Program-made: the position numbers and the translations under genes
Origin: Wolfiporia cocos
Lineage: Eukaryota; Basidiomycota; Agaricomycetes; Polyporales; Phaeolaceae
Direction of reading: 5' to 3'
Length of the DNA: 64,000 nt
Assembly (NCBI GenBank): GCA_029448655.1
Contig: JACCLO010000013.1
Location: forward strand, 1,984,001 to 2,048,000
Notes under the pieces: model-generated
What the model was told of the DNA's origin: nothing
The model's input: only the letters and a program-made list of their open reading frames with translations
Databases searched by the model: none
Shown: positions 1,561-63,500 of the stretch, in pieces
How positions within the stretch are numbered: position 1 is the first letter of the stretch
How the letters are laid out: each line of letters starts with the position of its first letter

Positions 1561-3136
1561 GTCTCGCGACAAGTCTCCGGTGCCAGACTCAACATGTCGA
1601 TGGCCAGCGTCAGCGTCAATGTGACAGATATTGCACGTGTCATGCGGCTTCTCGTCCGAAGTGGCAAGTGCGGCGCGCTTCTTTCCTCCTTGGGCTCGCC
1701 GTCCGCGGCGATGACGACGTCTCCGGTCAGTGCGACGCGCTTCTCTTCTTCGGAACTCGGGTCTCGAGCCGCCGGCGATCTCTTCCTTTTGGCTGGCACA
1801 GCAGGCTCCACAGTGGAGCCCCTCTGCGTGCTCTGCTCCTCCTGCTGGCACCCGTCCGCCAAGTACCCGGCGTGCACCTGCCGCCTACCATCCATACGCG
1901 CACGACGTCACTTGGGAGGGCGTTTCCTGGGCGGCGCATTATCGACATCCGGCATTCCACGACAATGCTTCGCACACCGCACGTATACAGAATCCTTGTC
2001 AAAGCTTCCTTTGCTCTTGCGCAGGCGCTCGTCCTTCCTCCTGAATATCCTGTGTCTAGGTTTCGCTGAAGCTTTGTACATTAATATGACGACTCAATTG
2101 GCTTCGCGCTGCATCAATTGATACCCACCTTCTAATATTGAGGATGCACTATTGCGCTCGTTCTTGGTCGGCCGCCTCTCCCTGTTAGATATGTTCTCGA
2201 TCGCTGTGCTCAGTGAGCGCCTTTTGAGAATTTTCTCCAATCGTGCCATTTATGAGCCTCTACCCGTCCTGCCTCTACTTGCTCACTCGCTCATCTGCTC
2301 ACTATCAACCTCTCTTGTCAGGTCGTGCAAGCGCTTTCCAGGGATACTACGAGTCGTCTGCGATGTGAGTGGACACATCTCGTAGGGGTGGTATTCCGTG
2401 ACGGTCAGTCTCATCTATCCTCATCCTACCGTATCCATCCATGATGCCAATCGGATTCATCCTGCCATATATGCTTATCCTTTGGTAACGTCAACAGTGG
2501 CGGACGGTCTTTGACCTGCAGACATGCGCCTCCTCCATTGCTACCTTCAGTTCTGCCTGTTGAACCGTACCTGGGGGCACGTCACGCCACCATCATCTCC
2601 CATTCTTTGCTCGTGTCGATGACCGGTATCATACGTAATTCAGCCCGGGCCGTGCACTGCTATATCACGCTACGTGCAGGCGTCGGCTGTTGGCTGCCAC
2701 TCACTTGAGAACTGGACGATAGTGAGCATCCTCTGACTTGCGACGGAGGGAAGGTAGGTGCAATGCTGTACAGTAGGTACATGCTACGTATGCAACGATG
2801 GAGACTCCGACAATCTTTTGGGCTAAAATTTGTGGAAAATTCTGATGCTCAACATGACACGCCCTGTGCAACCTCTCGGCCGTGTCGCAAGTAGCCGCAC
2901 GAATGTACATCCGATGGCATGACCGTGCTCAGCTATTTAAAATGCAGCGATCGCCTTCGCAGACAGCACGGCAGCCCAACAGCTACGCCTGTATGCATAT
3001 TTTCGCCACCCTCTATATCATCACAGCAGGCTTTGTGCTTTCTTCTTGTTGGTGTCTCATCCTTCGCTTTCACAAGGACTGCCACACCGCTTTGGGCACG
3101 TGATCTGATCTCGTATTGTCGAGGAATCGTCACATA
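1561..3136. other. Gene-free stretch at the left end of duplicated unit A
   Basis: No intact gene is visible. From about 1800 the sequence is a diverged copy of 17280-18600 in unit B, for example the shared stretch around ATTCCACGACAATGCTTCGC (1958-1977) and CGACGTCAC. A minus-strand frame at about 1560-1895 has basic, nuclear-looking composition (KRKRSPAARDPSSEEEKR), but it has no homologue here that I recognise and it runs straight into the OMT pseudogene. I treat it as unproven. Confidence 0.5.
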
Positions 3137-3141
3137 CCCTT

Positions 3142-3532
3142 TGACCCAGGAATCCTGCCTGAGGTCGGTGTCTCCTACTGAAGGCGCTAGGGAGGCTGGG
3201 TCACCACTCCAGTCTAGCAAACGTAGTCACAACAGCAGAGGTTAAGGATAGAAGGTTGGGACACGCCCCAATGCCAAATTGATAAGTCTGAGGAGAATGC
3301 CTCAGACTTATGAGCCTTAAGTACATGCAACGCCGCGCACCACTACTTGTAAGACTACCCTAAAGCAGCGCCTATACTACCACCCAGAATAGTCCTATGG
3401 AACGCTTACATAATACACTACAATACTATATACTCTTGAGTACCCAGTGGTAACCTAAGCTCCCTATGTTAAATGCAACAGGTCATGTGACCGCTATGCG
3501 CTATACCTCATGTCGCAGAATTAACTGTGACA
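3142..3532. mobile_element. Solo LTR, 391 bp, target duplication CCCTT
   Basis: The element begins TGACCCAGG and ends AACTGTGACA. CCCTT occurs directly before it (3137-3141) and after it (3533-3537). The paralogous site in unit B (about 18594) reads straight through CATACCCTATACACTGC, so B preserves the empty site. The interior has a CTCAGA-type hairpin near 3285-3310 that resembles those in other LTRs of this window. Confidence 0.8.
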
Positions 3533-3537
3533 CCCTT

Positions 3538-4326
3538 TGAGATGCACTGCTCCTTTGCTTCTTTTCTAATACAATATTCAGTCAATCGTTGTCCTGCGAC
3601 TAGCGCATTTTATCCCTCTTCACCCACTCGTGCTACTTCAAACCCCAAAATAACTGCTAGGTGTCTCCAGGGCCGTGCAAAATGCATACGATAACCCGCT
3701 TTGCCTGGTATGTACAGCCTCATGCTATTCCAGCTAACCCACACTACAGCCATGACAGAACTGTGGGCAAAAGCGCAAAGCACATCATTGAACCTATGCA
3801 CTGGCGTGAATTCAGATCATCGTGCCTGTGGGCGCCTCAAGCAGTTAGGATCGTGGCATGCCTTATGCTGCAACATGCATATGTAGGACGCAGAGTGGCG
3901 CTACATTCTCGAGCAGTGTCCCTGGTGAGCTGAGAGTGCAGTCAGCTCACAGTCCACAATTTTTCAGGAGGCAGGTGACTAAGGGATCTGCACAATGAAG
4001 ACATGGTATGCCCATTTTGGCCATGTAAATAAGCGACTCCGCACGTGTTCCGTCAATGATTGAGGTGCCTATGCTCCCTGAAATCAGCATCAGTGACTGA
4101 AAAGAGTCACTGTGATCCGCTTGAATTTTCACTCACACTCTTCAAGGCTCAGCATGAGCATTGCTGTGCTCATGCCACACGTACAGGACAATACATGCAG
4201 TGCTAGAGGACATTGCATGTACATCCAGTATTTCACTCACAGATGTAGACTGTGTGACAGTGATAGGCAAGCTTGCAGTGCTGGGAGGTGCATTTACCCC
4301 TCATACACAATACCAAATGAGCATTC
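3538..4326. other. Gene-free unit A flank
   Basis: This is homologous to about 18600-19420 of unit B, for example CCAGGGCCGTGCAAAATGCA at 3668 against its near-copy at 18738. No reading frame with recognisable protein features is present on either strand. Confidence 0.5.
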
Positions 4327-4868
4327 TGTTATGATTTCATCAGGTGCACCCGAATATTCTCTTTGATGCCTCATAGTGTACGAGGACTTAGCGTTCAACT
4401 GCTGTACCCAGCGCTCTATTTCTAGGGGCCTCTGCTCAACCGTAGGCCCCGTTTCATGTATAACAACCCTATGCCCACTCTCCATGTTCGCATCGCATTC
4501 TAGCTGATATTCTTTGTCTAACCACAGTAGTTCTACGTTTCATCCCATGTTGCGCTCAACCGCAACACTTCTCCTTTGTTACTCATATCGTTAGCACGAT
4601 GGACTTAATAGTAGCAGAACCAAGGACACTGTGACCCCAATTAACAGATCGTAGTATATAACCTGATGTAAATACCGGTCGAGTTCCTCAGCTCGACCTT
4701 GTTGAATTACAAGGATCTTATACTCGTTCTCAAAGGCTTGAGCAATTAAGCCTGCAGCTTGTATATCGACGCTCTGACTCTGAGGAGTCCAACGAGTAGT
4801 GCACTACTTGATACGCTGAGTAACTCGACTTAGTTATTTTGCGTTAAACGGATATTCGATCCGTAACA
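4327..4868. mobile_element. Solo LTR, 542 bp, target duplication CATTC
   Basis: The element runs from TGTTATG to CCGTAACA and is flanked by CATTC at 4322-4326 and 4869-4873. It has the TGTTA..TAACA termini and internal motifs (CAGCTCGACCTTGTTG, TTATACTCGTTCTCAAA) shared with the LTRs at 7268, 40597 and 41808. Unit B lacks it at the matching place near 19400. Confidence 0.85.
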
Positions 4869-4873
4869 CATTC

Positions 4874-7267
4874 AAGCATTCAATGGCAGTGTCACAAGAA
4901 ATAACCGTGATTTCCCCCTTATTTTTGCGCTTTTTATTCCGATTTTTAGGCTTGTTAGACCGTCACTGGAGGGTATCACGTGCATAGGTAGATAAAGTCT
5001 TTATCTTATCTCGCTCTCACATGGTCACGTTGTAGCATCTTGAGTAGCACGTTATCTAGTTACCTCTGTAGTCACATGATTCCTACTGCGCACAGACCGT
5101 CTCTTTAGGGTAGACAAAAGGTCTTAGCTAGGGGGTCTCTACATGTATATATACAGGCGACGTCTGAGGATTACTCCTCAGACTGAAGATTTTGGCCTAG
5201 GGGGCATGTCCCCTGGTCACCTCTTTTACCCTCTGCTGCCTACTTTTGTGTGTCAGGGTCCTTGTGACTAAGCCTGCTACGTCCTACTTGGGTGTGGGGG
5301 CTCCTATTCATTGCAACCAATACTTCATCTCTTATACCTGCTAGTCTGGGGGCGTCGCGGTACACTCATGGGTCGCAACTTCAGGCAATACAGCAGGCCG
5401 TCTCAATAGACATGCCTTCTTGTGCTCCGCCACTAGGAGTATGGGGGGTTATTAGGGATAGGGGTGGCAGATATAGGGGTTCCCCGCTGGGGCGGGTGGC
5501 ACGGTGGTTTCCGTGTCAGGTAGTGTATTTGAGTGAATATTGTAGTCTTTTGTTCTGCTGTTGTGAGTCACAAATAATAACTTGGATTGCTTACAACAAT
5601 TCAAAATGTTCTTCTTTGCCACCAGGGTACCACACCATTGTGATTGGAGTGTGATTTGTGAGATTCAGGCCCAGATATACATGCTTCAATATTGATCTGT
5701 CCTCTTGTGCCAAGCATACCAATGTGTGTTGATTCCCAAATGTTTAGGGGTGGGTAATTTGTCACCTATATGTGCAGTATTTTGTTGTCATTGGTCACTC
5801 ATGCATGCAAATTATCAGGCAATGGCTACTACAGATTGAATGTCCATTTGACTAGATATCTCAGATGGAATATTCAGTATTGTCAAGTAGTGTACTATTT
5901 GCCTGCTCTCATATTGCAATCCTAGAAGCTAGAATTCAAACATATCACTGAGCTTGGTCATTCAGGTTTGAGAGTGGATACAAGACCCTTGTTATTACAA
6001 CAAGGCTGAGATGAAGAGCCCAATGTCACAAAGTTTATTTGATGCCCCACTATTTCACCATTGCTCAATACTGCACAGGGGACTTGACATTCAACAGCAT
6101 TCCTGTTATGAGTGGAATATATTTACTTGTCAGAATATCCTGCCTTGGATATTCTTCAGTAGCAAGTAGCACACCACTCACCAAGTCCCTAAGTCAAAGA
6201 CTTGGTTGAGGCACTTCAGAGCTCAAAAGATATTTTGATCACCCAAATACAAGAGCAAATATAAGACTCTTATTAATACAACAAGATTGGGCTGAGGGCT
6301 TGACCAATAAATACTTGAGTTTATATATGCTATTAAGTATCCTTGGTTGAAGTGACCTAGGTACTATCAGGTACCATAAGTAGACTAACTACATGATAAA
6401 GACAAATCACAGGGTGAAACAATAGATAAGAATATTGTAGTTGAATGCAACATATCAGTATCACAATGAACTATCATGGTTGGATGTGATACTGTGGTGT
6501 CACGACCTCAGACGACAGCGACAGGTGATGCACGTGATCGTGAGAAGGGGGAACTTAGGCGATAGTGGGGGTGGGGACAAGGGACACTGATGACATGCTG
6601 ATAGGTGACCGGTTGTCCGAGTGCAAGGTAATACTCTATTGTCATTAGTACTGTTGCACAGGGTGCCTGGTGAGAATTTCAATGAGCATTTCCACACTGA
6701 CTGCCAATGATTCAAACTTCAGCGCTTCAGCTCTCAATGGATCTCCCATAATTAGTAAGTGTTGAAGTCGCAGCTTAGGCGATGAGACCCTAAGCCACCT
6801 TCTAAGTCACTATGTCCTGTGCTGACTTATTGGTTGCAGTCTCCAGTCTAGTAGTCAAGCAGGTACAGAAGAGGGGAACATGCAATGGTGGGACATCAGA
6901 GAGCTTGCAGACAAGCCCTACATCTATATTTAAAGGTCTGAGCTGTAATGCTCAGAGTGCAGTACCTAATTACATGGTCATGAACATGTCACTAAGGGAT
7001 ACCCTAAAGTAGGGGGTCTGTGCACTAGAGGTTATGCTACATATAACTACACTGAGTCATAGACCATTATGTAATTGCATGTATGTACCTGTTAACATGG
7101 CTGCAGGGGTACAGGTGGTCCTATGTTTGAGTCCCTCTGGGGGAGGACCAGAAAATCTGTGACAGTGCCCTAGGTCTATGCTTCCCCAACACCACCAATA
7201 CTATACAAGGTGAGGCTATGAGCACAGCATAAGGTTAGATAAGGATGCTGTGGTTGAACATAGCAAT
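4874..7267. other. Gene-free, repeat-derived stretch of unit A
   Basis: No gene is visible. Bases 5560-5720 match 19520-19660 of unit B. The 4900-5570 block is extra relative to B and is bounded by the near-repeats GTCACAAGAAATAAC and GTCACAAATAATAAC, so another insertion is likely but its ends are not clean. 5090-5290 and 6480-7150 contain LTR-like motifs: a CTCAGA hairpin at 5163-5190, TATATATAC, and CTAAAGTAGGGGG near 7005. These motifs are shared with 33500-33580. Confidence 0.45.
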
Positions 7268-8115: not shown

Positions 8116-8940
8116 ACTGGAACCTTCATGATCATGTGAGGTGGATATCTTCCAATCCTGTATTTGTGTCAGTATATTCACAATGTATCTGCTGGAAGTG
8201 CTCACATGCATGTGTATAGAAATTTGATAGATCAAGGATGGTGACTAGGCCTGATTCTGACCCACATGCATAAACCATTTCATGGTATGCCTGTGTTGTC
8301 AGCCATTTTTTGTCACTAGGCCTCCTTACATCAGGGAGCCAAAAAAGCCTTCTTTCTGTGTCTCTGTCTGTAACCCATCCATGTTCTGTATAGAATTGTG
8401 GATCCTGCTGCACTGGTGCCACACCCCAGTTATTGGTCACAAGGTTCAGAGCCTCCCAGGTTTTGCATGACCAGATGATGGCATTGTTACCCCTGCCATA
8501 ATGCACACACAGTCTTCTGCTGTCTGGAGAAAACTCAATGCAGTTGACCAGTTCCCATGGTCTCATGATGAGTGGAATGTCTTGAATGAGTGCATAGCTG
8601 GTGGTTGACCAGATAGATATGGTGGTACGGCTGCTGGCTGCCAGCATTAGGCCATTTGGTGAGAATGCTAGCCTGGCAATAGTATCACCTGCCCACTGAA
8701 GAGAATGTCCCACCCATCCTGTGCTAAGTATAGCAATTTCACTGTTGGATGGCCAATGATGCAAGGCCCCATAGTATGCATCAGATGAGTCTGCACTTGA
8801 CCCCTGATGGTCACTGTTCCAGATAATGATCCTCTCATCATAAGCACATGTGGCCAGCTGAGCTCCATTATGTGAGAATGCCAAATTATAGACTGGGGCT
8901 GCATGGGCCATCAACTGTGACTTGGGCTGTTTTGGAATGG
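8100..8940. other. CpG desert over the 3' end of NLR gene 1
   Basis: I count one CpG in about 840 bases (near 8628), against about nine in the next 160 bases upstream in the gene (8941-9100). TG and CA are abundant, as expected from deamination of methylated CpG. The protein frame stays open throughout. Confidence 0.85.
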
Positions 8941-11900
8941 CTTGTAGGTCCCACACACGGATAGTCTCATCATCCGAGCCAGATGCAAGACGGTCACCTT
9001 CAGGTGAGAACCCAATGGACCGTACCCCATCAGAGTGTCCCTTGAGGGTTGCAAGGGCCTCCCCGGATTGCGCATCCCACAACCGCACGGTGCGGTCATC
9101 TGACCCTGAGGCAATAAGGTCACCTTTGATGGAGATTGTTACCGACTTGACTCCAGCGGTGTGACCCTTTAGTATTTGCGTGCACTGTGCTGATTCCATA
9201 TCCCAGATGCGCACTGTCTTGTCGTTAGACCCAGAAACAACTTTTGCTCCATCCGGGAAGAAGACGGCAGACTGCACCATGGCAGTGTGACCACGAAATA
9301 TCACTTGCAAATCAAGGGATTGTGAATCCCATGTGCGGACGAGCCCATCGCTGCATGCAGTGACAATGCGAGCGCCGTCCGGCGAATATGCCGCGTACAA
9401 CATATAGGTGTTTTCACACAGTATCGCTGATTGTAAGAATTCACCAGTGTTTGGACTCCATATATACAGCGTGGCTTCTATGACTGTCGAGGTCTGTTGC
9501 TCCGCATCTGCACCGGCACCCAATTTCGATGCTGCGGCAGCAATGCGCTTGATGCTGGTGCGGGATCCGATGACGACAGTACGCCCGTCAGGTGAGTATG
9601 CGATAGATATGACTTCCTGGATGCTTCCAGTATTTCGCGGGAGCCGCAATGTTTTGGTAGGAGCTCCTGACGCCGTGCTCCATACGTTGATCTCGCCGCC
9701 TAAAGAGCCGGAAACAGCGAATTTGCAATCAGGGGCGACGGCTACTGATGTCACCGCGAACGTATGACCGCGCATGGTGTTCAGGGTGGTGCCCGCAACT
9801 ACGTCGAACATTCGAATCCTTGTGTCATGGGATCCTGATGCGATATATCTGCCATTTTGTGAGAATGTCACACTGCTTACAATGTCTACATGATCCCGTA
9901 TCACACGGAGGCATGCACCCCATTGCTGGTCGCGTGGCAAGAGCAAAATAGGGGCGCGGTGACTGTAGATGTCACGGAGCCGGCACTCAGGAATGAACGG
10001 CAGGATGCCAACATAGATCTTCTCGGGGCATTCTTCTATCACTGAGAATGAGTCAAGCAGGAAGCGATATGCATCATGAAGCAGCCCCGAAGCTGTAAGG
10101 ATTCCATGCTCCTGCAAAGGGAATTTGAGCTTGGTTCGTGAAGTGAGTTATGGAAAATACCTGTGACCAAGTCTGAGATTTCACCAGGGACTTGACCGCA
10201 GCGTCAAGCTTGCCCAGGATACTACATGCTTCCATCCATACTAGCAATTTTCGGGAGCAAAGGACAGTCAACTCATTGATTAGTGATGACGTTGGATCTG
10301 CCTCGGCAAGATGGTAAGCCCAGTGGTTGCACGCATATTGGATATGAGGCGGCATAGACGTTCGGATGAGCGAGGGGAGGTCATTTATAGCAGTTAATGG
10401 AGCAGTAGGATCATTCAGGTCCAGGATGTTCCGGTGAAATCCAGGGTATGTATTCAGTAGCTTGAGACATGCGACCGCTAGTATCGCATGATGGATGCGT
10501 GGGCCGATGTAGTAGCATGTGTCCTGACACCGCTGATTGTCCACGAGGAACTGAGGAAAGCTTGCATGTAGTGGGCGGAATGGCACCGTTGAGTCGCTCC
10601 TATCATAATGTGACACAGATTGCAGACGTTCCAAAATGGAGAGTATTCCTTCCTCTGCGACATCCAACAATGCCGCAAGGGCATTTGGTGAAATGTGATC
10701 TCGTAGCAGTGCAAGGGCCCCCAGGACTTGCTCCATAGCAGCCCTGTTCTCGTGCCACTCATTCAAGAATTCTGATGGCAATGCTGATCGAAGTACGGCC
10801 AGGTACAGCGCATCCAAGTCGTTCAAAACAACCAATGAGTGTTCTGAATTGTCCAACAACGCATCGATGAGCTGAATGATGCGTCTAGAATTTCTGTCCA
10901 GAGTGCGGCATGCAGTTGCGGCCCAGATGAAGAGCCCTTTCGCTCGTTTAGTCAAGTCTTGTACCACATTTGGCCGCGAATCGAATAGAAGTCTGGAGGT
11001 GGGTAGTCTTGCCAGTCTATCCCAAAAGAATAAAGCGATGTCTCCGTCGACATTGACTTGAGGTACCTCTTCGAAACGATAGGATTTGGTGACGCTTTTG
11101 AATTCAACGGTTTCGAAGACGCGCTCAATGTGCAGCTCGGGACGAGTTGTAATAAAGATACGAATAGGAATGTGCAGGTCGCGGATCCCTCTGAGAAGAA
11201 GATAAAGTAGCCGCGGGATGCGCTCAAGGGCCTGATCCGTGCATTCATCGAGGGCATCAATGATGATTACAACAGGATTGCAATCTGCTGTGGCGACAGA
11301 AAGAGGCCGTGCGATCAGATCCTGCACCTGCGCCTCCATACTTTGTAGATCTCCCCTAGATAAATGAGAACGGACATGCTCGACGATGCAAGCGCGAATG
11401 GCAACCTGTGATCGAGCAAGCTGATATGCAATTGTCGGGATGACGTGTGTTGTGCAACTCAAATTGGCATCGCCACGAACAAAGAAAAAGGACGCGCCAA
11501 GACGACCAATTCCGTCCAGTCGCTTTGCAAACTCATAAGCCACCGTTGACTTTCCAGTCCCCGCTGCGCCGCTGAGTACGAATATGCACGGCTGTTCCGG
11601 TGCCGTAGCCCAGCGCTCAAGCGTGGTGAGCAGATCCATGCGAGTGCCCGGGAGGTATCCGTTCTTCGCTTCGTTGATCGCCGACCTATACTCCGCATGG
11701 TCACGATGAGGCAGCCTATCAAGAACGACCTGAACGTCTGCAGATCATTCATCTATGTCAGCGTACGTGTAGATTCTTTGTGATTTACACGCACCTCTAT
11801 CGCGTATAAACTAGTGCATGTCTCATCTAAGCTTGAGTTCATCACATATTTGGGGGTACGTACATTATTCATTTTCTGGTCAATGGAACGCACAATTTCG

Positions 11901-20852: not shown

Positions 20853-21470
20853 CTAACAAAGCCTCCTTTTTGTATCTCTGTTGATAACCCATCCATTCTC
20901 CTCATAGAATTGTAGATCATGCTTCACTGGTGCAACACCCCAGTCATTTGCTGCAAAATCCAGAGTCTTCCAGGTTTTGCATGACCAGATTGCAGGGCTT
21001 GAACCTTTGTGGAAATGTGCATACAACCTGCTGCTGTCTGGGGAGAACTCCAGGTAGTTTTTCCATTCACTGGATTTGATTCTGAGTGGAATCTGTTGAA
21101 TGAGCACATAGCTGGTGGTTGACCAGATCCCTATGGTAGTCTTGCTACTGGCTGCCAACATCATGCTATCTGGTGAGAATGCCACTCTGGTAACAGGGCC
21201 ACCTGCCCACTCAAAAGGATGCCCCACCCATCCTGCACTGAGAATAGCCATTTCACTGCCAGTTGACTGAGGATGTGAGACCTCATGGTATGCATCAGAT
21301 GAGCCTTCACTTGACTCCTGATTGTCCTTGTGCCAGATAATGATCTTCCCATCCTCACCACCTGTGGCCAGTTGTGTTCCATCATGTGAGAATGCCACAC
21401 AACTGACTGGGGCTGCATGCCCCATCAACTGTGAGTTGGACTGTTTTGCAATTGCTTGGAGGTCCCATAC
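20720..21470. other. CpG desert over the 3' end of NLR gene 2
   Basis: Essentially no CpG occurs between about 20730 and 21470, while 21541-21600 alone has five. The transition lies about 60 aligned bases from that in NLR 1. Confidence 0.85.
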
Positions 21471-24400
21471 ACGGACAGTCCTATCATATGAGCCAGATAC
21501 AAGACAGTCACCCTCAGGTGAGAATTCAACGGAGAATACCCAGCGAGAGTGTTCATCGAGGATGGAAAGGGCCTCCCCGGATCGTGTGTCCCACAAACGG
21601 ACGGTCCAATCGGATGAGCCTGATGCAATCAGGTTGCCTTTGGACGAGATTGCGACTGAATGGACTGTGTTGGTATGGCCTTGTAATATTTGTGCGCACT
21701 GTGCTGATGTTGCATCCCAGATGCGGATTGTCCTGTCTTTGGAGCCGGAGGCGAGTTTTGCTCCATCCGGGAAGAAGACAGCAGACAACGCCTTGTCAGT
21801 ATGGCCAGTCAATGTAGCTTTGGGATCAAGAGTATGTGCATCCCATGTCCGGATGAGCCCATCATTGGATACTGTGACAATGCGTGCACCGTCTCGCGAG
21901 TACGCCACAGAGTTTACACTGGTGTGTTTACCCACAATAGTCGATTGTAGACATTCACCGGTGATTGGATCCCATATATGCAGCATTGCCTCCATAAATG
22001 TTGAGGCCTGATGCTCCACATCCACACCGGAACCCATTTCTGATGCCGCGGCAACGGCGCACTTGATATTGGTGCGAGATCCGGTGACGACAGTACGCCC
22101 ATCTGGTGAGTATGCAATACACCTGACTGCCTCAATGCGCCCAGCATCCTCCGGAAGCCGCAATACTTTGGTAAGAGCTCCCGATGTCGTGCTCCACATG
22201 TTGATCTCGCCGTTTCCAGAGCCGGAAATGGCGAACTGGTTATCAGGAGAGATAGCTACCGACGTTACCCGTCTCGTATGACCCTGCATGGTGTTCAGGG
22301 TAGTGCCCGACACTGCATCGAACATTCGAACCGTTTCGTCATCCGATGCAGATGCGATCCATTGGCCATTTGGTGAGAATGTCACGCTGTTCACAGGGCC
22401 AGTATGATCTCCTATCACACGGAGGCATGCGCCCCATTGCCGATCGCACGGCGAGAGCAAAACGGAGGCGTGATGACTGTACTTCTCACGGAACCGGCAG
22501 TGAGGAATGAATGGCAGGATGCGAATGTAGATCTCCTCTGGACAACCTTCGATCTCTGAGAACGAGCAGAGCAGAAATCGGTATGCATCATGAAGCAGTT
22601 CTGAATTCGCAGGAAGCCCATGCTCCTACACATACAAGTTTAGCTCGGCTCGTGAAAAGTGAGTTCGAGCACATACCCGTGACCAAGTGTGAACGTGCAC
22701 CAGGGATTTAGCAGCGGCGTGGAGCTTGCCCAGGATGCTTGACGCTTCGATCCAGACCAGCACTTTGCGGGAGCAGAAGACATTCAACTCGCCAACGAGT
22801 GATGATGTGGGATCTGCCTCGGAGACATGGTAGGCCCAGTGGCTGCACGCATATTGAACGTGAAGCGGCATAAATTTTTGGGCGAGCGAGGGAAGATCAT
22901 CGATAGCATTCAAGGACACAGTAGGGTCATCGAGGGCCAGAATGTTTCGGTGAAACCCAGGGTGTGTATTCAGTAGCTTGAGACATGCGACCGCTGATCT
23001 CGCATGATGACTATGTGGGTTGGTGTAGTAGGATGTGTCCTGGCACCGCTGATTGTCCACGAGGAACTGAGGAAAGCTTGCATGTAGTGGGCGGAATGGT
23101 ATCGTTGGATCCCTCTGATCATAATTCGCCACCGACTGCAGACGTTCCAAAATGGACAGTACTCCTTCCTCTGTGACATCTAACAAGGCTGCCAGGGTCT
23201 GTGGTGAGATGTGATGTTGCAGTAGCGCAAGGGCTCCCAAGACACACTCCATATCAGCCTTGTTTGTGCTACATTCGATCAAGATGTCTGACGACAATGC
23301 TGACCGAAGCACGGTTAGATACAACCTGTCCAAGTCATTCAAAACGACTGCAAAGCTTGCTGAGTTGCCAAGCAACAACGCGTCGATAAACGGAAGGACA
23401 CGCGTAGAATTGTTGTAGAGCATACGACACGCCGTAGCCGCCCAGATGAAGAGCCCTCCCGCTCGTCTAGTCAGGTCGTGTACCACGTTTGGCCGCGAAC
23501 TGAACAGAACGCTGAAGTTAGGTAGTTTCTCCAGTCTATCCCGGAAGAATAGAGCGATATCGCCGTCGACATCGACCTGCGGCACCTCTTCAAGGCGGTA
23601 GGGCTTCGTGATGCTCTTGAACTCGACAGTGTCGAAGACGCGCTCGATGTGCAGTTCAGGACGTGTTGTAAGTAACACACGAATAGGGATGTGCAGGTCG
23701 CGGATTCCCCTGAGGAGAAGATAAAGTAGTCGTGGGATGCGCTCAAGGGCCTGATCTGTGCATTCGTCGAGGGCATCGATGATGATCACAACAGGGTCGC
23801 GGTGATCCAGTATAATATCAGCGAGGGGGTCAACAATAAGGTCCTGGATTTGCATTTCCATATTCTGTAGACTTAATCTTGGGACATGCGCGTGCGCGCA
23901 TTCAATGACACGAGGGCGAAGGAGAGTTTGTGAGCGCGCCAGCTGATATGCGATTGTCGGGATGACGTATGTGGTGGAGCTCAGATCGGCGTTACCGCGA
24001 ACAAAGAAGAAGGACGCGCCAAGTCGACCAGTGCGATCGAGACGCCTGGCCAGTTCAAAGGCCACAGTTGACTTTCCCGTTCCCGCCGCGCCGCTAAGGA
24101 TGAAGATGCATGGCTGATCTTCTGCAGTCGCCCAGTGCTCCAACTCGGAGAGCAATTCCTTCCGAGTCCCAAGCAGATATCCACTCTTGACTTCATTGAT
24201 CGGCGATAAGTACGAGGCATCATCGCGGTGAGGCAGTCTATCGAGGACGGCTTCGATGTCTGCGACACGTCAGCGCGTAACAATCGAGCATACCGCTGAC
24301 AGATGAATAATATGTACCAACCTCGACCGTGCATCGCCTGGATCATTTGCCTTTTAGTAAAACCCGGGCAGATAGAAACACAGCGACGCACTTTATCCAT

Positions 24401-27246: not shown

Positions 27247-28069
27247 TCTGAACTATAATGGGAGCTCGCGCCGTAGGCGCTCGCGTGCAGCTAGCGTGCA
27301 GCTAGCGTGTCGCTCGCGTGCAGCTAGCGTGTCGCTCGCGTGTCGCTCGCGTTTTGCGCACATGGCGAGCACGTTTGCCGCGTGGCGTCCATGCGCGTCG
27401 TTGATCCTCCTCCCATTAGATAGGGCGCCTGCCGTCCGCGGAGTTGGCCGGTAGATTCCCACGCCCGGCGCCTGCAAGGTGCGCGCGCTGTTCCTGCCCC
27501 GCACCACGGGGATTCGTGCCCCATGCCACGGGGATTCATGCCCCATGCCACGGGGATTCGTGTCCCATGCCACGGGGATTCATGCCCCACACCACGGGGA
27601 TTCGTGGCCCATTCCATGGGGGTTTGTGGCCCATGCCACAGGGATTTGTGTCCTGTGGCATGGGGATTTTATACCCCACACCATGGGGATTTGTACCCCG
27701 TGCCACGGGGATTCGTGCCCTACACCACGGGGATTTTTGGCCCATGCCATGGGGGTTTGTGCCCCATGCCACGGGGATTCGTGCCCCATGCCACAGGGAT
27801 TTGTGTCCTGTGGCATGGGGATTTTGTAATATAAATACTCCACACCACAGGGGTTTGTACCCTGTGCCACAGGTATTTGCACCCCAATGCCACAGGGGTG
27901 AATTCCCACACCCAGCGCCTGCAAGGCATGCGTGCCAGTTACAGATTCTACAAGCAAAGTGACAACGATACCGAGCATCAGCGAGGTGGAGGAGTGGCTG
28001 AGCAAGCAGAGACTAAAATATATTCCTAAGACATAACGTTTGTGGCGAAGCCACAGGTAATTAAGCTAG
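27247..28069 (+). mobile_element. Helitron-like unit 1 (type A, 823 bp)
   Basis: Starts TCTGAACTATAATGGGAG and ends GGTAATTAAGCTAG. It has a CpG-rich head with repeated GTGTCGCTCGC, a central minisatellite (about 27495-27905), and a tail with GATACCGAGCATCAGCGAGG. Confidence 0.65.
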
Positions 28070-29203
28070 TCCATAATATAATGGGAGCTCGCGCCGTAGG
28101 CGCTCGCGTGTCGCTAGCGTGCAGCTAGCGTGTCGCTCGCGTGTCGCTCGCGTTTTGCGCACGTTCAGCGCACGTTTTGCGCACATGGACGCCACGTTTG
28201 CCGCGTGGCGTCCATGCACGTCGTTGATCCTGCTCCCATTAGATAGGGTGCCTGCCATCCGCGGAGTTGGCCGGTGGATTCCCACGCCCGGCGCCTGCAA
28301 GGCGCGCGCGCTGTTCCTGCCCCACACCACGGGGATTCGTGCCCCATGCCACGGGGATTTGTGCCCCATGCCACGGGGATTTGTGCCCCACACCACGGGG
28401 ATTTGTGCCCCACACCACGGGGATTCGTGCCCCACACCACGGGGATTTGTGGCCCTTGCCACGGGGGTTTGTGGCCCATGCCACAGGGATTTGTGCCCCG
28501 TGCCATGGGGATTTGTGCCCCACATCATGGGGATTTTTGTAATGTAAATACCCCACACCACGGGGATTTGTGCCCCATGCCACAGGGATTTGTACCCCAC
28601 ACCATGGGGATTTGCACCCCATGCCACGGGGAATTGTGCTCTGTGCCACAGGGATTTGTGCCCTGTGCCACGGGGATTTTTGTAATGTAAATACCCCACA
28701 CCACGGGGATTTGTACTGCATGCCACAGGGATTTGTACTGCACACCATGGGGATTTGTGCCCCATGCCACAGGGATTTTTGTAATGTAAATATCCTGCAC
28801 CACGGGGATTTGTACCCTGCACCATGGGGGTTTGTGTCCCATGCTATGGGGATTTGTGCCCTGCCACAGGGATTTTTGTAACATAAATGGCCTGTGCTGT
28901 AGATGCCTGCCAAAAGATTGCAAAAAATGAAGAACATTTTGACACCACATTGCACAGTATTACAAGTGAAGCGACGATGAGACCGAGGATCAGCGAGGTG
29001 TCAGAAGTGGCTGAGCAGGCAGAGACAAGAGACAAAAGAGGGAAGTTGGGGAAGCCATGGGTAATGCACAGGAAATTCATGGGGGATGCACAGGTAACTT
29101 CAAAAAACCCCGATTATCTGAAATAGGCACACATGGATTGGGATACTGTATTGAAGTGGAAAAAGCGGTGTGACCGTGGCGAAGCCACGGGTAATTAACC
29201 TAG
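28070..29203 (+). mobile_element. Helitron-like unit 2 (type B, 1134 bp)
   Basis: Starts TCCATAATATAATGGGAG and ends GGGTAATTAACCTAG. It has a longer minisatellite (about 28318-28880) interrupted by several TTTTGTAATGTAAATA blocks. The 3' hairpin is CCGTGGC-GAA-GCCACGG. Confidence 0.65.
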
Positions 29204-29991
29204 TCCATAATATAATGGGAGCTCGCGCCGTAGGCGCTCACGTGTCGCTAGCGTGCAGCTAGCGTGTCGCTCGCGTGTCGCTCGCGTTTTGCGCACATGG
29301 CGAGCACGTTTGCCACGTGGCGTCCATGCGCGTCGTTGATCCTCCTCCCATTAGATAGGGCGCCTGCCGTCCGCGGAGTTGGCCGGTGGATTCCCACGCC
29401 CGGCGCCTGCAAGGTGCGCGCGCTGTTCCTGCCCCGCACCACAGGGATTCGTGCCCCATGCCACAGGGATTCGTGCCCCATGCCACGGGGATTCGTGCCC
29501 CACACCACGGGGATTCGTGGTCCATTCCATGGGGGTTTGTGGCCCATGCCACAGGGATTTGTGTCCTGTGGCATGGGGATTTTGTAATGTAAATACCCCA
29601 CACCACGGGGATTTGTACCCCGTGCCACGGGGATTCGTGCCCTACACCACAGAGATTTTTGGCCCATGCCATGGGGGTTTGTGCCCCATGCCACGGGGAT
29701 TCGTGCCCCATGCCACAGGGATTTGCGTCCTGTGGCATGGGGATTTTGTAATATAAATACTCCACACCACAGGGGTCTGTACCCTGTGCCACAGGTATTT
29801 GCACCCCAATGCCACAGGGGTGAATTCCCACACCCAGAGCCTGCAAGGCATGTGTGCCAGTTACAGATTCTACAAGCAAAGCAACAACGATACCGAGCAT
29901 CAGCGAGGTGGAGGAGTGGCTGAGCAGGCAGAGACTAAAATATATTCCTAAGACATAACATTTGTGGCGAAGCCACAGGTAATTAAGCTAG
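29204..29991 (+). mobile_element. Helitron-like unit 3 (type A, 788 bp)
   Basis: This has the same organisation and length as unit 5. It starts TCCATAATATAATGGGAG and ends GGTAATTAAGCTAG, with the minisatellite at about 29435-29830. Confidence 0.65.
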
Positions 29992-31063
29992 TCTATAAGT
30001 AATGGGGGCTCGCGCCGGAGGCGCTCGCGTGCGGCTAGCGTGCAGCTCGCGTGCAGCTAGCGTGTCGCTCGCGTGTCGCTCGCGTTTTGCGCACGTTCAG
30101 CGCACGTTTTACGCACATGGACGCCACGTTTGCCGCGTGGCGTCCATGCGCGTCGTCAAATCCTGCTCCCATTAGATAGGGCGCCTGCTGCCATCCGCGG
30201 AGTTGGCCGGTGGATTCCCACGCCTGGCGCCTGCAAGGCGCGCGCGCTGTTCCTGCCCCGCACCACGGGGATTCGTGGCCCATGCCACGGGGATTCGTGC
30301 CCCATACCATGGGGATTCATGGCCCATTCCATGGGGGTTTGTGGCCCATGCCACAGGGATTTGTGTCCTGTGGCATGGGGATTTTGTAATGTAAATACCC
30401 CACACCACGGGGATTTGTGCCCCGTGCCACAGGGATTTGCACCCCACACCATGGGGATTTGCGCCCCATGCCACGGGGATTTGTGCACCATGCCACAGGG
30501 ATTTGTGCCCTGTGCCGCAGGGATTTTTGTAATGTAAATACCCCACACCACGGGGATTTGTACCACATGCCACAGGGATTTGTACTGCACACCATGGGGA
30601 TTTGTGCCCCATGCCACAGGGATTTTTGTAATGTAAATACCCTGCACCACGGGAATTTGTACCCTGCACCATGGGGATTTGTGTCCCATGCTACGGGGAT
30701 TTGTGCCCTGCCACGGGGATTTTTGTAACATAAATGGCCTGTGCTGTAAATGCCTGCCAAAATATTGAAGAACGTTTGACACATGGCATTACACATTATT
30801 GCAAGTGAAGTGACGACAAGACTGAGCATCAGCGAGGTGGAGGAGTGGCTGAGTGAGCAGAGACAAGGAACAGAAGAGGGGAACCCATGGATAATCCATG
30901 GTAAATTGATGGGGAATCCACAGGTAAGTTCAAAAAACCCTTGCTTTGTGTGTGAATGGTCTGAATTCCCCCAGTTATCTCAAATAGGCACACATGGATT
31001 GGGATATGATATTGAAGTGATTAAACTATGTGTCCGTGGCGAAGCCACGGGTAATTAACCTAG
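29992..31063 (+). mobile_element. Helitron-like unit 4 (type B, 1072 bp)
   Basis: Starts TCTATAAGTAATGGGGG and ends GGGTAATTAACCTAG. The minisatellite is at about 30255-30735, with TTTTTGTAATGTAAATA spacers as in unit 2. Confidence 0.65.
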
Positions 31064-31851
31064 TCCATAGAGTAAGGGGAGCTCGCGCCGTAGGCGCTCG
31101 CGTGCCGCTAGCGTGTCGCTCGCGTTTTGCGCACATGGACGCCACGTTTGCCGCGTGGCGTCCATGCGCGTCGTTGATCCTCCTCCCATTAGATAGGGCG
31201 CCTGCCGTCCGCGGAGTTGGCCGGTAGATTCCCATGCCCGGCGCCTGCAAGGTGCGCGCGCTGTTCCTGCCCCGCACCACGGGGATTCGTGCCCCATGCC
31301 ACGGGGATTCGTGCCCCATGCCACGGGGATTCGTGCCCCATGCCACGGGGATTCATGCCCCACACCACGGGGATTCGTGGCCCATTCCATGGGGGTTTGT
31401 GGCCCATGCCACAGGGATTTGTGTCCTGTGGCATGGGGATTTTGTAATGTAAATACCCCACACCACAGGGATTTGTACCCCGTGCCACGGGGATTCGTGC
31501 CCTACACCACAGAGATTTTTGGCCCATGCCATGGGGGTTTGTGCCCCATGCCACGGGGATTCGTGCCCCATGCCACAGGGATTTGCGTCCTGTGGCATGG
31601 GGATTTTGTAATATAAATACTCCACACCACAGGGGTCTGTACCCTGTGCCACAGGTATTTGCACCCCAATGCCACAGGGGTGAATTCCCACACCCAGAGC
31701 CTGCAAGGCATGCGTGCCAGTTACAGATTCTACAAGCAAAGCGACAACGATACCGAGCATCAGCGAGGTGGAGGAGTGGCTGAGCAGGCAGAGACTAAAA
31801 TATATTCCTAAGACATAACGTTTGTGGCGAAGCCACAGGTAATTAAGCTAG
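31064..31851 (+). mobile_element. Helitron-like unit 5 (type A, 788 bp)
   Basis: Starts TCCATAGAGTAAGGGGAG and ends GGTAATTAAGCTAG. It has almost the same length and sequence as unit 3, suggesting recent amplification of the A-B dimer. Confidence 0.65.
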
Positions 31852-32363
31852 TCATATAATAAAGGGACGACCGTTGCGTGGGAACTGCCATGTGCTTTTC
31901 CACGTGCGCCACGTGCTGTCCGTCGTCCCATAGGGCTCGCGCCACCGACCCGGGGAGTTGGCCAGTGTATTCCCACGCCCGGCGCCTGCAAGGCGCGCGT
32001 TCAAAATCCCGGCGAAAAACGTTTCGCGCGTCCTCCCTGCGCTGTGCCACGGGGATTTTGTAGCTGTTGTAACGTAGATGGCCTGTACTGTAGATACACG
32101 CGATTAATTAAGAGAATTCAGGGAGTTTTTTGAGGCACCACACAATGTTACAAGCGAAGCGACGACGACACCGAGCATCAGCGAGGTGGAGGAAGTGGCT
32201 GAGCGGGCGGAGAACAAAAGACAGGTGCAACAGGGTGATCACACACCCTGGAGGTTGGGTGGACTCATAATGTCTCCATCCAGTGTTTTTTCCCTTATTC
32301 TATTAGTTATCTCACTTAAGTGACAATTGATATTCGTGGCGAAGCCATGGGTAATTAAACTCG
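31852..32363 (+). mobile_element. Helitron-like unit 6 (divergent, 512 bp)
   Basis: Starts TCATATAATAAAGGGACG. It keeps the GGCGCCTGCAAGGCGCGCG box and the GCGAGGTGGAGGAAGTGGCT tail but has only one minisatellite monomer. Its hairpin (GTGGC-GAA-GCCAT) and terminus (CTCG) are altered. It may be the ancestral or founder copy before minisatellite expansion. Confidence 0.55.
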
Positions 32364-60503: not shown

Positions 60504-63500
60504 ATGTCTCGTGTACGCGAGCTGCTTCATTCTCGCTTTGGCCGTCACAGGTCTCGCGAAAGAAGTCCGTCCCGTGATACGATCTCTGACACGACCTCCG
60601 GTGTCACGGAAACCAAGGAACGTAGAAAGCAGCATGTCGATGATGCGCTCACGGCTGCAAAGTTTGCGGTCGATACACTGGGCGATTTTGTGGGCTCAGG
60701 CATTCAAGTGCCAGGCATAGATGGAGTGATATCGACCTTGGGACGTGTACTTGAAATGATCATGGTAAAGCCACAGCCATATTTCTATCACTCTAACGAG
60801 AAATAACTTGCTTTATCAACGAGAAAGCGAGAGATAACGACGCAGAAGTGCAGGCTGTCACTGATTGCATAGGATCGCTTGCGCAGACCATCAAGACGAC
60901 CATGATGGATATCGTCAACCGTCTTGGAAATGACAAAGATTCTACGATTCCAGGCGGTCACACGATAGCTGGACTCCTACTCCAGCTCGACTGGCTCATC
61001 AAAGCGATTGGACGTCTTGACATGTACGTTCACTACACTCGGACCATCTAACACATGCTCACGTTATTGGTCAGGACATTGAAACGCCTTGCGCAGCAAG
61101 CAAACGAAATCAGGAGCAGGAGTATGGCCGTGAAGGTGATCAGAAGCGATCAGAATACAGCGATCCTGCAGGGCATTAAGTCGGGAATCGAGAATGCCCG
61201 CGGCGAATTTCTGGTCAGTCTTGCGTATTCCTGAAGAGATCTTTGTTACCATCCGGTTGGACCACAGGCTGCATGTGTGATTGGAATTGGGGTAGGAGTG
61301 GAATCGGTGGGAGCAAGGTTGAACGAGATAGGTGTCGGGATTCACAGTGTGGATGAGGTTCGACTCTTGCTGTCCGGCATAACTTAATTGTTACTGACAG
61401 TATGTTCGCCTCTGCTGATATAGCGGTCTGTGAGCAAAGGTATTCCGATACAACAAAGCGTTTCTCATACCACACTAACGCGGTTGTATCAGAAAGTCAA
61501 GACTTACTAGATCGCCTTCCTCATCGGGATCACGCGGAGTACGGCTCGCCAATTAATGTGGCAAAGAGTGGTTACCTACCGGGAACCCGTATTGGAATCC
61601 TAGATGACTTAGAGCACTGGGCGACGGACGAGAAGCAGCATATTCCCATTTATATTCTGAGCGGCGCCGCTGGGACCGGCAAATCGACAATCGCATACGA
61701 AACGGCGAAGAGATTGGACGCGATGGGACGCTTGGGCGCGTCGTTTTTCTTCGTCCGTGGCGATGCAGACCTTAGCTCCACTGCATGCGTCTTCTCCAGT
61801 ATTGCTTATCAGCTCGCTCTATCACAACCCCACCTGCGGCCGTTCATCGTCGAAGCATGCCGTACTTCGTCGCTTCGTACCACCGTACACGACATGGTTC
61901 ACCAGCTTGACAGCTATATCGTTCGTCCTTTGACAGCTGCGTCGGAGAGACCTCATCCCGTTTTGGTCATCATCGATGCGCTCGACGAATGCACGGACCC
62001 CGAGCTGGAACGAATACCCCGGATGCTATATTTACTCTTTGATCGCTTGCATTCAGTCAAATACCCTCTGCGGGTCCTACTCACGACGCGTCCGGAACTG
62101 CACATCGAGCGAGCATTCGAGTCAATCGCGTCTGCCCATGCCTCGAAACCATACAGACTACACGACATCTCACGCACCATCGTTGACGAAGACATCAAGA
62201 GGTTTTTTCTTGATAAACTATCATCCATGTCACAGATCAACGATCTCCTGGCTATGCGACCCAGCCTCATCGATGACCTGACGCACGCAGCAGAGGGACT
62301 ATTTGTCTATGCGTCAACTGTGGTCAGATGCCTTCGTGAGGACCCAGAGCATATCGTTGAGCTCACAGACGAGCTACTCCACAAGACATCGGCAGATGAG
62401 GTTCAATTGAGCGAGTTGGACGGCCTATACATGGCCGTTTTATCTGGCGCGCTTCCGTCTTCATTTCTGAAACGGAGAAAGACCAATCGTGAACTGGCTA
62501 GAGCAGTCTTGGCAGCCATTGCATTACTTCAGGACCATCTGCCACCGTCCTCAATAGGAATGCTTCTGGATATCTCCGTCTACGACATACACTCGATCCT
62601 CTCCCGACTCGGTTCCGTCACGCTGTTTGACCCCGAAACCGACGACCCAGTGCGACCGTTGCATGCTAGCTTCCCTCAGTTCCTCATTGATCCCACAAGA
62701 TGCACCAGCGCTGACTACTGCATCTCGCCGGACCTGTATCACGCACGCCTGACGATTTCGTGTCTCCAGATTCTTGCTACGCCTGGTAGCTTACGCAGAA
62801 ATATGCTTGGGCTAGACGAGCCGATGACTATCAAAACTACTGTGACTGATCTCGAAAGGCGCGTGCAGGAGAACATTCCTCTGCATGTCCGATATGCCAT
62901 CAAGCACTGGGCTACCCACCTCAGGAATGCACGATGCAATCCCGAGATTATACAACTGGTTCAAGACTTTAGCCAGATGAGACTACTTCTGTGGTTGGAA
63001 GCCGTAAGCAGCCTTGGTCGGCTCGATACAGCCGTGCATATTTTACCTGCTGTATGTGCTTGGAGCAAGGTGAGCATAAGATCATCATGCTTACCGCAGA
63101 AGCTGTGCTAAGTTGCTGGATGTAACACAGGCAATCAACGACTCGGCAACACATGCACTGTTCAATGATGCTTATCGTTTTGTTCTAGAAAACTTCAGCG
63201 CAATCGACTCTTGTCCTGAGCAGCTCTACTATTGCCTTCCATTCATGCCAAATTGCTCACTGTACCAGACATACACCCGCGAGATGCCATTCGTTCCGCT
63301 CATCTCCCCTCGCAGCCAGCGATGGGGCGCTTGCCTACGCGTTATCACAAACCACACCGACTGGGTCACATCCACGCGAGTCTCACCAAATGGTTTGCAG
63401 ATTGTTTCAGCATCCAATGACAAGACCATCCGTGTCTTCGACGCAGAGTCAGGCACTGCACTGAGCGTCATGAAACGGCACCGCGACTCCGTGCTATCCG

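Follow-up and report, generated by a model that had tools for sequence, protein, structure and literature searches.

Head-to-tail Helitron arrays of mixed composition in the genome of Wolfiporia cocos

Tandem Helitrons have been described in several lineages. In a head-to-tail pair of two unlike maize elements, the CTAG of one Helitron is directly followed by the TC of the next, and the authors weigh insertion at an AT made up of a host A and the 5' T of the resident against tandem replication (PMC2267711). Tandem Helitron arrays, centromeric ones among them, are also on record in bat, silkworm and plants (cited in PMC4067079, PMC5148889 and PMC5876387), and for three tandem copies in Metarhizium acridum both 5'-end insertion and rolling-circle replication were left open (PMC5148889). 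Here we analyse an array of six Helitron-like units in a 64,000-nucleotide stretch of Wolfiporia cocos DNA (assembly GCA_029448655.1, contig JACCLO010000013.1, positions 1,984,001 to 2,048,000; hereafter the window), together with related loci in a genome assembly of 64.4 Mb and 76 contigs. The units of such chains mostly have their closest relatives at other loci rather than beside them, and we consider it rather probable that the chains are built up from units that moved individually, the simplest route being docking at a resident 5' A^TC (the caret marks the point of insertion).

The array occupies positions 27247-32363 on the forward strand, with zero bases between neighbouring units. Each of the six units starts with TC and carries a hairpin with a GAA loop and a stem of 7-10 pairs (G-U allowed), 10-13 nt from the 3' end; the outer borders are an A upstream (27246) and a T downstream (32364). 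Judged by their 3' ends, units 1, 3 and 5 belong to type A and units 2 and 4 to the related type B, and the sixth is of another class (class C), which is present elsewhere as solo copies too. An initial annotation of this DNA had described contiguous units with TC starts, hairpins and an A/T outer context, a CTAG/TC join at every internal junction (the slash marks the join) and an A-B-A-B-A alternation, and all of this was borne out, including the junctions (5 of 5). Its statement that all units end in CTAG holds for units 1-5 but not for unit 6, which ends in CTCG and so departs from the CTRR consensus. The features are as follows, similarity being counted as identical bases over the longer length, with identity over aligned bases as a second score.

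27247..28069, + strand: unit 1, type A, 823 bp, TCTGAAC...GCTAG; best relative on C45 (locus L040, 7223), similarity 0.961
28070..29203, + strand: unit 2, type B, 1134 bp, TCCATAA...CCTAG; best relative L040 2331, similarity 0.934, 99.3% over aligned bases
29204..29991, + strand: unit 3, type A, 788 bp; best relative L076 1805, similarity 0.992
29992..31063, + strand: unit 4, type B, 1072 bp; best relative L040 2331 (similarity 0.88), or by aligned identity L078 2789 (96.4%)
31064..31851, + strand: unit 5, type A, 788 bp; best relative L041 4137, similarity 0.982
31852..32363, + strand: unit 6, class C, 512 bp, TCATATAATAAAGGG...ACTCG; best relative L043 587, similarity 0.979, 99.4% over aligned bases
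28066..28071, + strand: junction of units 1 and 2, CTAG/TC
29200..29205, + strand: junction of units 2 and 3, CTAG/TC
29988..29993, + strand: junction of units 3 and 4, CTAG/TC
31060..31065, + strand: junction of units 4 and 5, CTAG/TC
31848..31853, + strand: junction of units 5 and 6, CTAG/TC
27504..27824, + strand: 22-bp minisatellite in unit 1, with similar runs of varying copy number in units 2-5

The copy number of this minisatellite probably accounts for much of the variation in unit length.

To which family do the units belong? They appear to be canonical Helitrons of the non-autonomous kind, because an element with the same ends and an intact RepHel frame lies between such units. This autonomous element (L039 on C1, 748-7567) runs over 6,820 bp from TC to CTAG between two tandem units. 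Its open frame of 1,757 amino acids is uninterrupted and matches Helitron_like_N (6.6e-57) and PIF1 (4.5e-75) in a Pfam scan; it contains HVH at 810 and YIHKY at 946, which we take to be the marks of an HUH Rep with two tyrosines, and GGGGKT at 1291, presumably the Walker motif. The element thus has the RepHel protein expected of a canonical Helitron (Helitron1), with HUH Rep, two tyrosines and a PIF1-type helicase, and its ends (TC..CTAG) are common to it and the non-autonomous units. A 5' TC, a 3' CTRR and a hairpin about 10-12 nt inside likewise agree with Helitron1, the CTCG of unit 6 being the departure. The Pfam scan of this one RepHel protein returned Rep and helicase families only, with no endonuclease domain of the Helentron/Helitron2 kind, and the closest named relative among the matches listed is a protein of Grifola frondosa (53% identity). 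Across the genome, Helitron_like_N gave 34 matches, 33 of them above the cut-off, and 10 of the 34 lie inside uninterrupted frames of at least 1,500 amino acids. Two Rep matches (C10:349504 and C23:879462) have near-equal scores (~128 bits), both lie in 635-amino-acid frames, and both are more distant than the main group. In L049, L052 and L069, GCTCG ends lie ~3.3 kb downstream of Rep matches, a hint that a second RepHel group ends in CTCG and matches the CTCG class; a 5' end of this group was looked for and not found. The CTCG end of L049 is placed 6.3 kb beyond the last listed CTAG/TC end of a long array on C1.

Solo copies indicate insertion at A^T. When the flanks of 23 loci (7 arrays and 16 short-unit loci) were compared with the fetched DNA, spanning matches were obtained for 4. 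Three of these are solo units with paralogous empty sites at A^T, all without duplication: L051 (96.6%, 135 bases to the left and 69 to the right), L068 (90.8%, 26 and 159) and L045, for which there are two such places (87-88%, 300 to the left and 32-35 to the right). The fourth, a match of the L078 array to L072, is weak (84%, just 25 left bases, border mismatched). One empty site falls into the window itself:

4538..4871, strand not assigned: empty site of the solo class C unit C1:374404 (L045), 87% over 338 bp across A^T

Together with the A and T at the borders of the window array, these sites place the family with canonical Helitrons in its mode of insertion. The initial annotation had proposed to look for solo copies and empty sites at A/T and for a RepHel gene with TC..CTAG ends, and examples of each were found; copies with target duplications, which it had named as evidence to the contrary, are absent from the three solo empty sites. 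Its description of the units as Helitron-like is accordingly sound in ends, hairpin, target and gene.

The same 3' end is abundant throughout the genome. The motif GGTAATTAANCTAG has 522 copies in the 64.4 Mb and its reversed control has 0, so chance does not account for it; totals of such pattern searches are complete, whereas DNA similarity searches give the best matches listed. The base after these exact CTAG ends is T in 517, with TC in 407 and TA, TG or TT in 110, and if T is followed equally often by each of the four bases in host DNA, host sequence would make up ~37 of the 407 and true joins ~370. Exact CTCG ends number 141, which brings the exact 3' ends to 663. The arrangement is therefore common in this genome, with TC following 407 of 522 CTAG ends, and the "rare snapshot" of the initial annotation is not rare here. 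By contrast, another unit follows a CTCG end in just 3 of 30 fetched loci. Viewed from the 5' side, 112 unit starts in fetched loci (L003, L007, L044, L054 and L055 being left out as overlaps) are divided among CTAG or CTCG junctions (80), CTA junctions (5), positions behind an A (25) and positions behind another G (2); an A thus precedes 25 of the 27 starts outside junctions. The start motif of class C, at 121 places, is preceded by A in 54 and by G in 67, and by C or T in 0. At one array (L074, 7518-7522), five extra bases, TGATA, separate a CTAG end from the next TC, as if two insertions had used A^T sites five bases apart.

If neighbouring units were copies of one template, they should resemble one another more than they resemble units elsewhere. 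We compared 90 units from 24 loci, of which 88 units from 23 loci remained after 2 were dropped (L055 being the same place as L078); the comparison excluded units >3,000 bp (the RepHel element) and those whose start had not been located. Starts were placed manually for two units (L075, L077), and one further unit (L041) was defined manually. The nearest relative lies inside the unit's own array for 5 of 88 units, with 4.7 expected, and at another locus for the other 83. The window conforms to this picture: similarity within it is 0.917-0.947 among A units and 0.83 between the B units, and each of the six has a better relative at another locus (0.88-0.99 over the longer length). Identity over aligned bases keeps this order for 6 of 6, with small margins for unit 1 (0.970 inside, 0.976 outside) and unit 5 (0.974, 0.985). 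Six copies of a 284-287-bp unit, moreover, have six different left contexts. In this sample, then, neighbours have independent ancestries and the arrays are of mixed composition.

These results bear directly on the proposal that replication of one element, or of a dimer circle, runs several times beyond the 3' end and yields a linear concatemer that is inserted once. Exact CTAG/TC junctions with zero extra bases agree with it, as do the circles with a precise end-to-end junction reported for Helraiser (PMC5876387). Run-off from one template should place similar units next to each other, and that was not seen in the sample; as the main route, run-off of a single template or a dimer misfits because the nearest relatives sit at other loci and the neighbours are varied, and the concentration of class C units at the 3' side also speaks against it. 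We regard this route as improbable. The initial annotation had read the array as rolling-circle concatemers in which amplification copied a dimer, and neither part finds support: local dimer amplification, tried as an explanation of the A-B-A-B-A order, is unsupported on the same ground, the nearest relatives of 6 of 6 window units lying elsewhere. Intact pairs may nonetheless move to a slight extent.

How might chains of unlike units arise? We envision that a RepHel-coding element of the same family moves the non-autonomous units and that each unit usually arrives separately, entering where a host A meets the 5' TC of a resident. Insertion at A^TC would yield CTAG/TC with nothing lost and would restore a fresh A^TC at the outer end, so that the chain would grow at its 5' side; entry downstream of a unit would require G^T instead. 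Probably, Rep cuts a resident A^TC as if starting transposition, and another copy is attached to the cut end through its 3' CTAG. In favour of this reading are the T after 517 of 522 CTAG ends and the TC after 407, the A in front of 25 unit starts outside junctions, the class C start motif with A or G before it at all 121 places, nearest relatives in other arrays, near-identical units in differing contexts, the mostly terminal position of class C, the four-unit block at a single A^T (L073), the solo empty sites and the RepHel element. Later unequal exchange might duplicate some segments, and loss of termini might make longer composite elements.

Such composites appear where an internal 3' end has been damaged. 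A join lacking its G, CTA/TCTGAAC, occurs at 14 places in the genome. At ten of these, a two-unit query of 1,117 bp matches over its full length (1-1116 or 1-1117) with 92-100% identity; of the remainder, 2 lie in partial matches and 2 outside the matches listed. Three of them, all fetched, are a 1,983-bp trimer with two G-less joins, with 1,981 of 1,983 bases identical in each pair; its left context is a host A at C45 and the end of another unit at C2 and C34, and the C2 and C34 trimers may be parts of a longer common block, since their neighbours are alike on either side. Units whose internal 3' end was damaged, two or three together, have thus moved as a block, and the G-less junctions are a naturally occurring test of what specifies the 3' end of a Helitron.

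Block movement also bears on a further alternative, namely that two or more copies excised together are joined CTAG to TC in trans, the resulting mixed chain then entering a single A^T. The 3' tail of one unit in L073 is interrupted at one A^T by a block of four units (2,496 bp); closed over the block, this host unit measures 283 bp, and its alignment to a sister of 284 bp has 275 identities, 8 mismatches and 1 gap. The block could represent a ready-made chain, as joining in trans would have it, but 5'-side growth fits too. The trimer, nearly identical at three loci, could also be read as joined beforehand; against this, its junctions lack the G, as does that of the two-unit block with full-length matches at 10 loci. 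There remain the neighbour pairs with intact junctions (L073 with L077, or dimers like C23:1340012), which are slightly above the null, although their recurrence is not significant (p=0.14 and p=0.07). Joining in trans is, in our judgement, rather unlikely, albeit worth keeping in mind.

A plain satellite expanded by unequal crossing-over would consist of a near-uniform, homogenised monomer. The units are instead of 262-1283 bp and of several classes, with a 6.8-kb element in addition, and those of the same array are no more alike than those of different arrays. Unequal crossing-over gives no account of mixed units, of the autonomous element inside an array or of solo copies with A^T empty sites. 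It does fit L040 (C45), where an A-B period of 1,817 bp runs with zero mismatches from 2407 to 4287 and then breaks down (copies 2407-4287 and 4224-6104). The breakpoints lie ~55-120 bp inside units, away from TC and CTAG, as unequal exchange predicts, so that this duplication looks like a very recent exchange within a Helitron array. The initial annotation had listed unequal crossing-over as a possible refutation; it seems to apply to this one array elsewhere and hardly to the origin of arrays generally. As that origin we think it very improbable, and see it as a secondary process.

Docking at A^TC also has to contend with a number of observations that weigh against it. The first concerns order. 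Genome-wide, types alternate in 27 of 49 steps (null 21.0, p=0.013), a modest excess that persists without one copy of the duplicated L040 dimer (25 of 47, p=0.036); some tendency to alternate is real, and docking alone does not account for it. Nor does docking by itself explain the placement of class C at the 3' side. Class C is last in 18 of 26 cases and the other class in 3 of 62, counts that are no random sample, as similarity to the first 1,054 bp was the criterion for arrays and a CTCG end the criterion for 30 loci. Of the arrays that were selected for resemblance to the other class and whose right border is visible (n=10), 9 end in class C (the window array, L041, L042, L073, L074, L076, L077, L078 and L005), and L040 ends in a chimera with CTCG. 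Growth at one side might leave an age gradient, and identity to the nearest relative neither rises nor falls consistently from 5' to 3' (Spearman -0.15, p=0.33, n=47). The second concerns blocks. The right neighbours of near-identical units are themselves near-identical for 4 of 84 pairs at similarity 0.95 (null about 2, p=0.14) and for 2 of 31 at 0.97 (null 0.4, p=0.07), one of the latter being the L040 duplication, and two-unit neighbours with intact junctions recur too (L075 = C23:1340012; L073 with L077), which blurs a clean split between fused and intact neighbours. The third concerns the sites. No empty site of the window array was present among the 40 matches scored, its left flank matching itself alone and its right flank, starting 3-8 bases outside the border, matching 38 other places among the matches listed; docking would, in addition, need extreme selectivity in a genome with ~4.7 million AT sites (extrapolated from the window). 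Finally, successive arrivals are read from one assembly in which no insertion step was seen, and joining before integration may have contributed.

On balance, assembly from individually mobile units by docking at A^TC remains the reading that we favour. One may go further and suppose that the Helitron transposase prefers a resident 5' A^TC and so, in a kind of transposon usually credited with wide insertion at AT, targets its own family, that most copies come to lie in growing, ordered chains, and that loss of a junction base fuses neighbours into composites that spread; for this wider proposal the arguments seem to us evenly balanced.

Two further observations concern the window around the array. 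From 32367 onward, 3-8 bases past the array border, an interspersed repeat begins that has at least 38 other copies at 97-100%. Open frames resembling P-loop (NACHT-type) and WD40 repeat proteins, in two pairs and one single, lie at 8132-11639, 20853-24155 and 61402-63111 and suggest a putative cluster of fungal NLR-like genes.

How much of this is particular to the present genome? The repeat table of Wolfiporia hoelen SS20 gives 78 Helitrons (0.23%; PMC9503964). If this is the same genome, the family is probably under-annotated, given the 663 exact 3' ends counted here against 78 tabulated Helitrons, and an assembly artefact would be less likely, since PacBio reads underlie that assembly. Among basidiomycetes, HELPO1 and HELPO2 of Pleurotus ostreatus have a T[C/G] 5' end, a CT[A/T]G 3' end, a hairpin and an AT target, as here (PMC4289320); the word "tandem" does not occur in the main text of that paper. 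In the literature searched, most subscription papers lying outside its scope, we found no description of genome-wide mixed Helitron arrays in a basidiomycete. The Metarhizium acridum case is a fungal tandem as well, but a single one, of a non-canonical, Helitron2-like element (PMC5148889). The arrays of bat, silkworm and plants are likewise head-to-tail and have been attributed to bypassed termination or circular intermediates, whereas neighbours here are not copies of one another. The maize pair comes closest, sharing the G/T junction CTAG/TC and unlike neighbours; it is one pair, whereas here 407 CTAG ends are followed by TC, an autonomous element lies inside an array and blocks have fused (PMC2267711). 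The choice between run-off and repeated insertion beside residents was left open for maize and for Fusarium/Metarhizium (PMC2267711, PMC5148889), and hundreds of junctions and long Rep-bearing frames in one genome now make that question testable. Tandem Helitrons with this junction were thus already known; what stands out here is their scale, the mixture of units with an autonomous copy within an array, the way in which the classes are ordered, and the fused blocks with damaged junctions.

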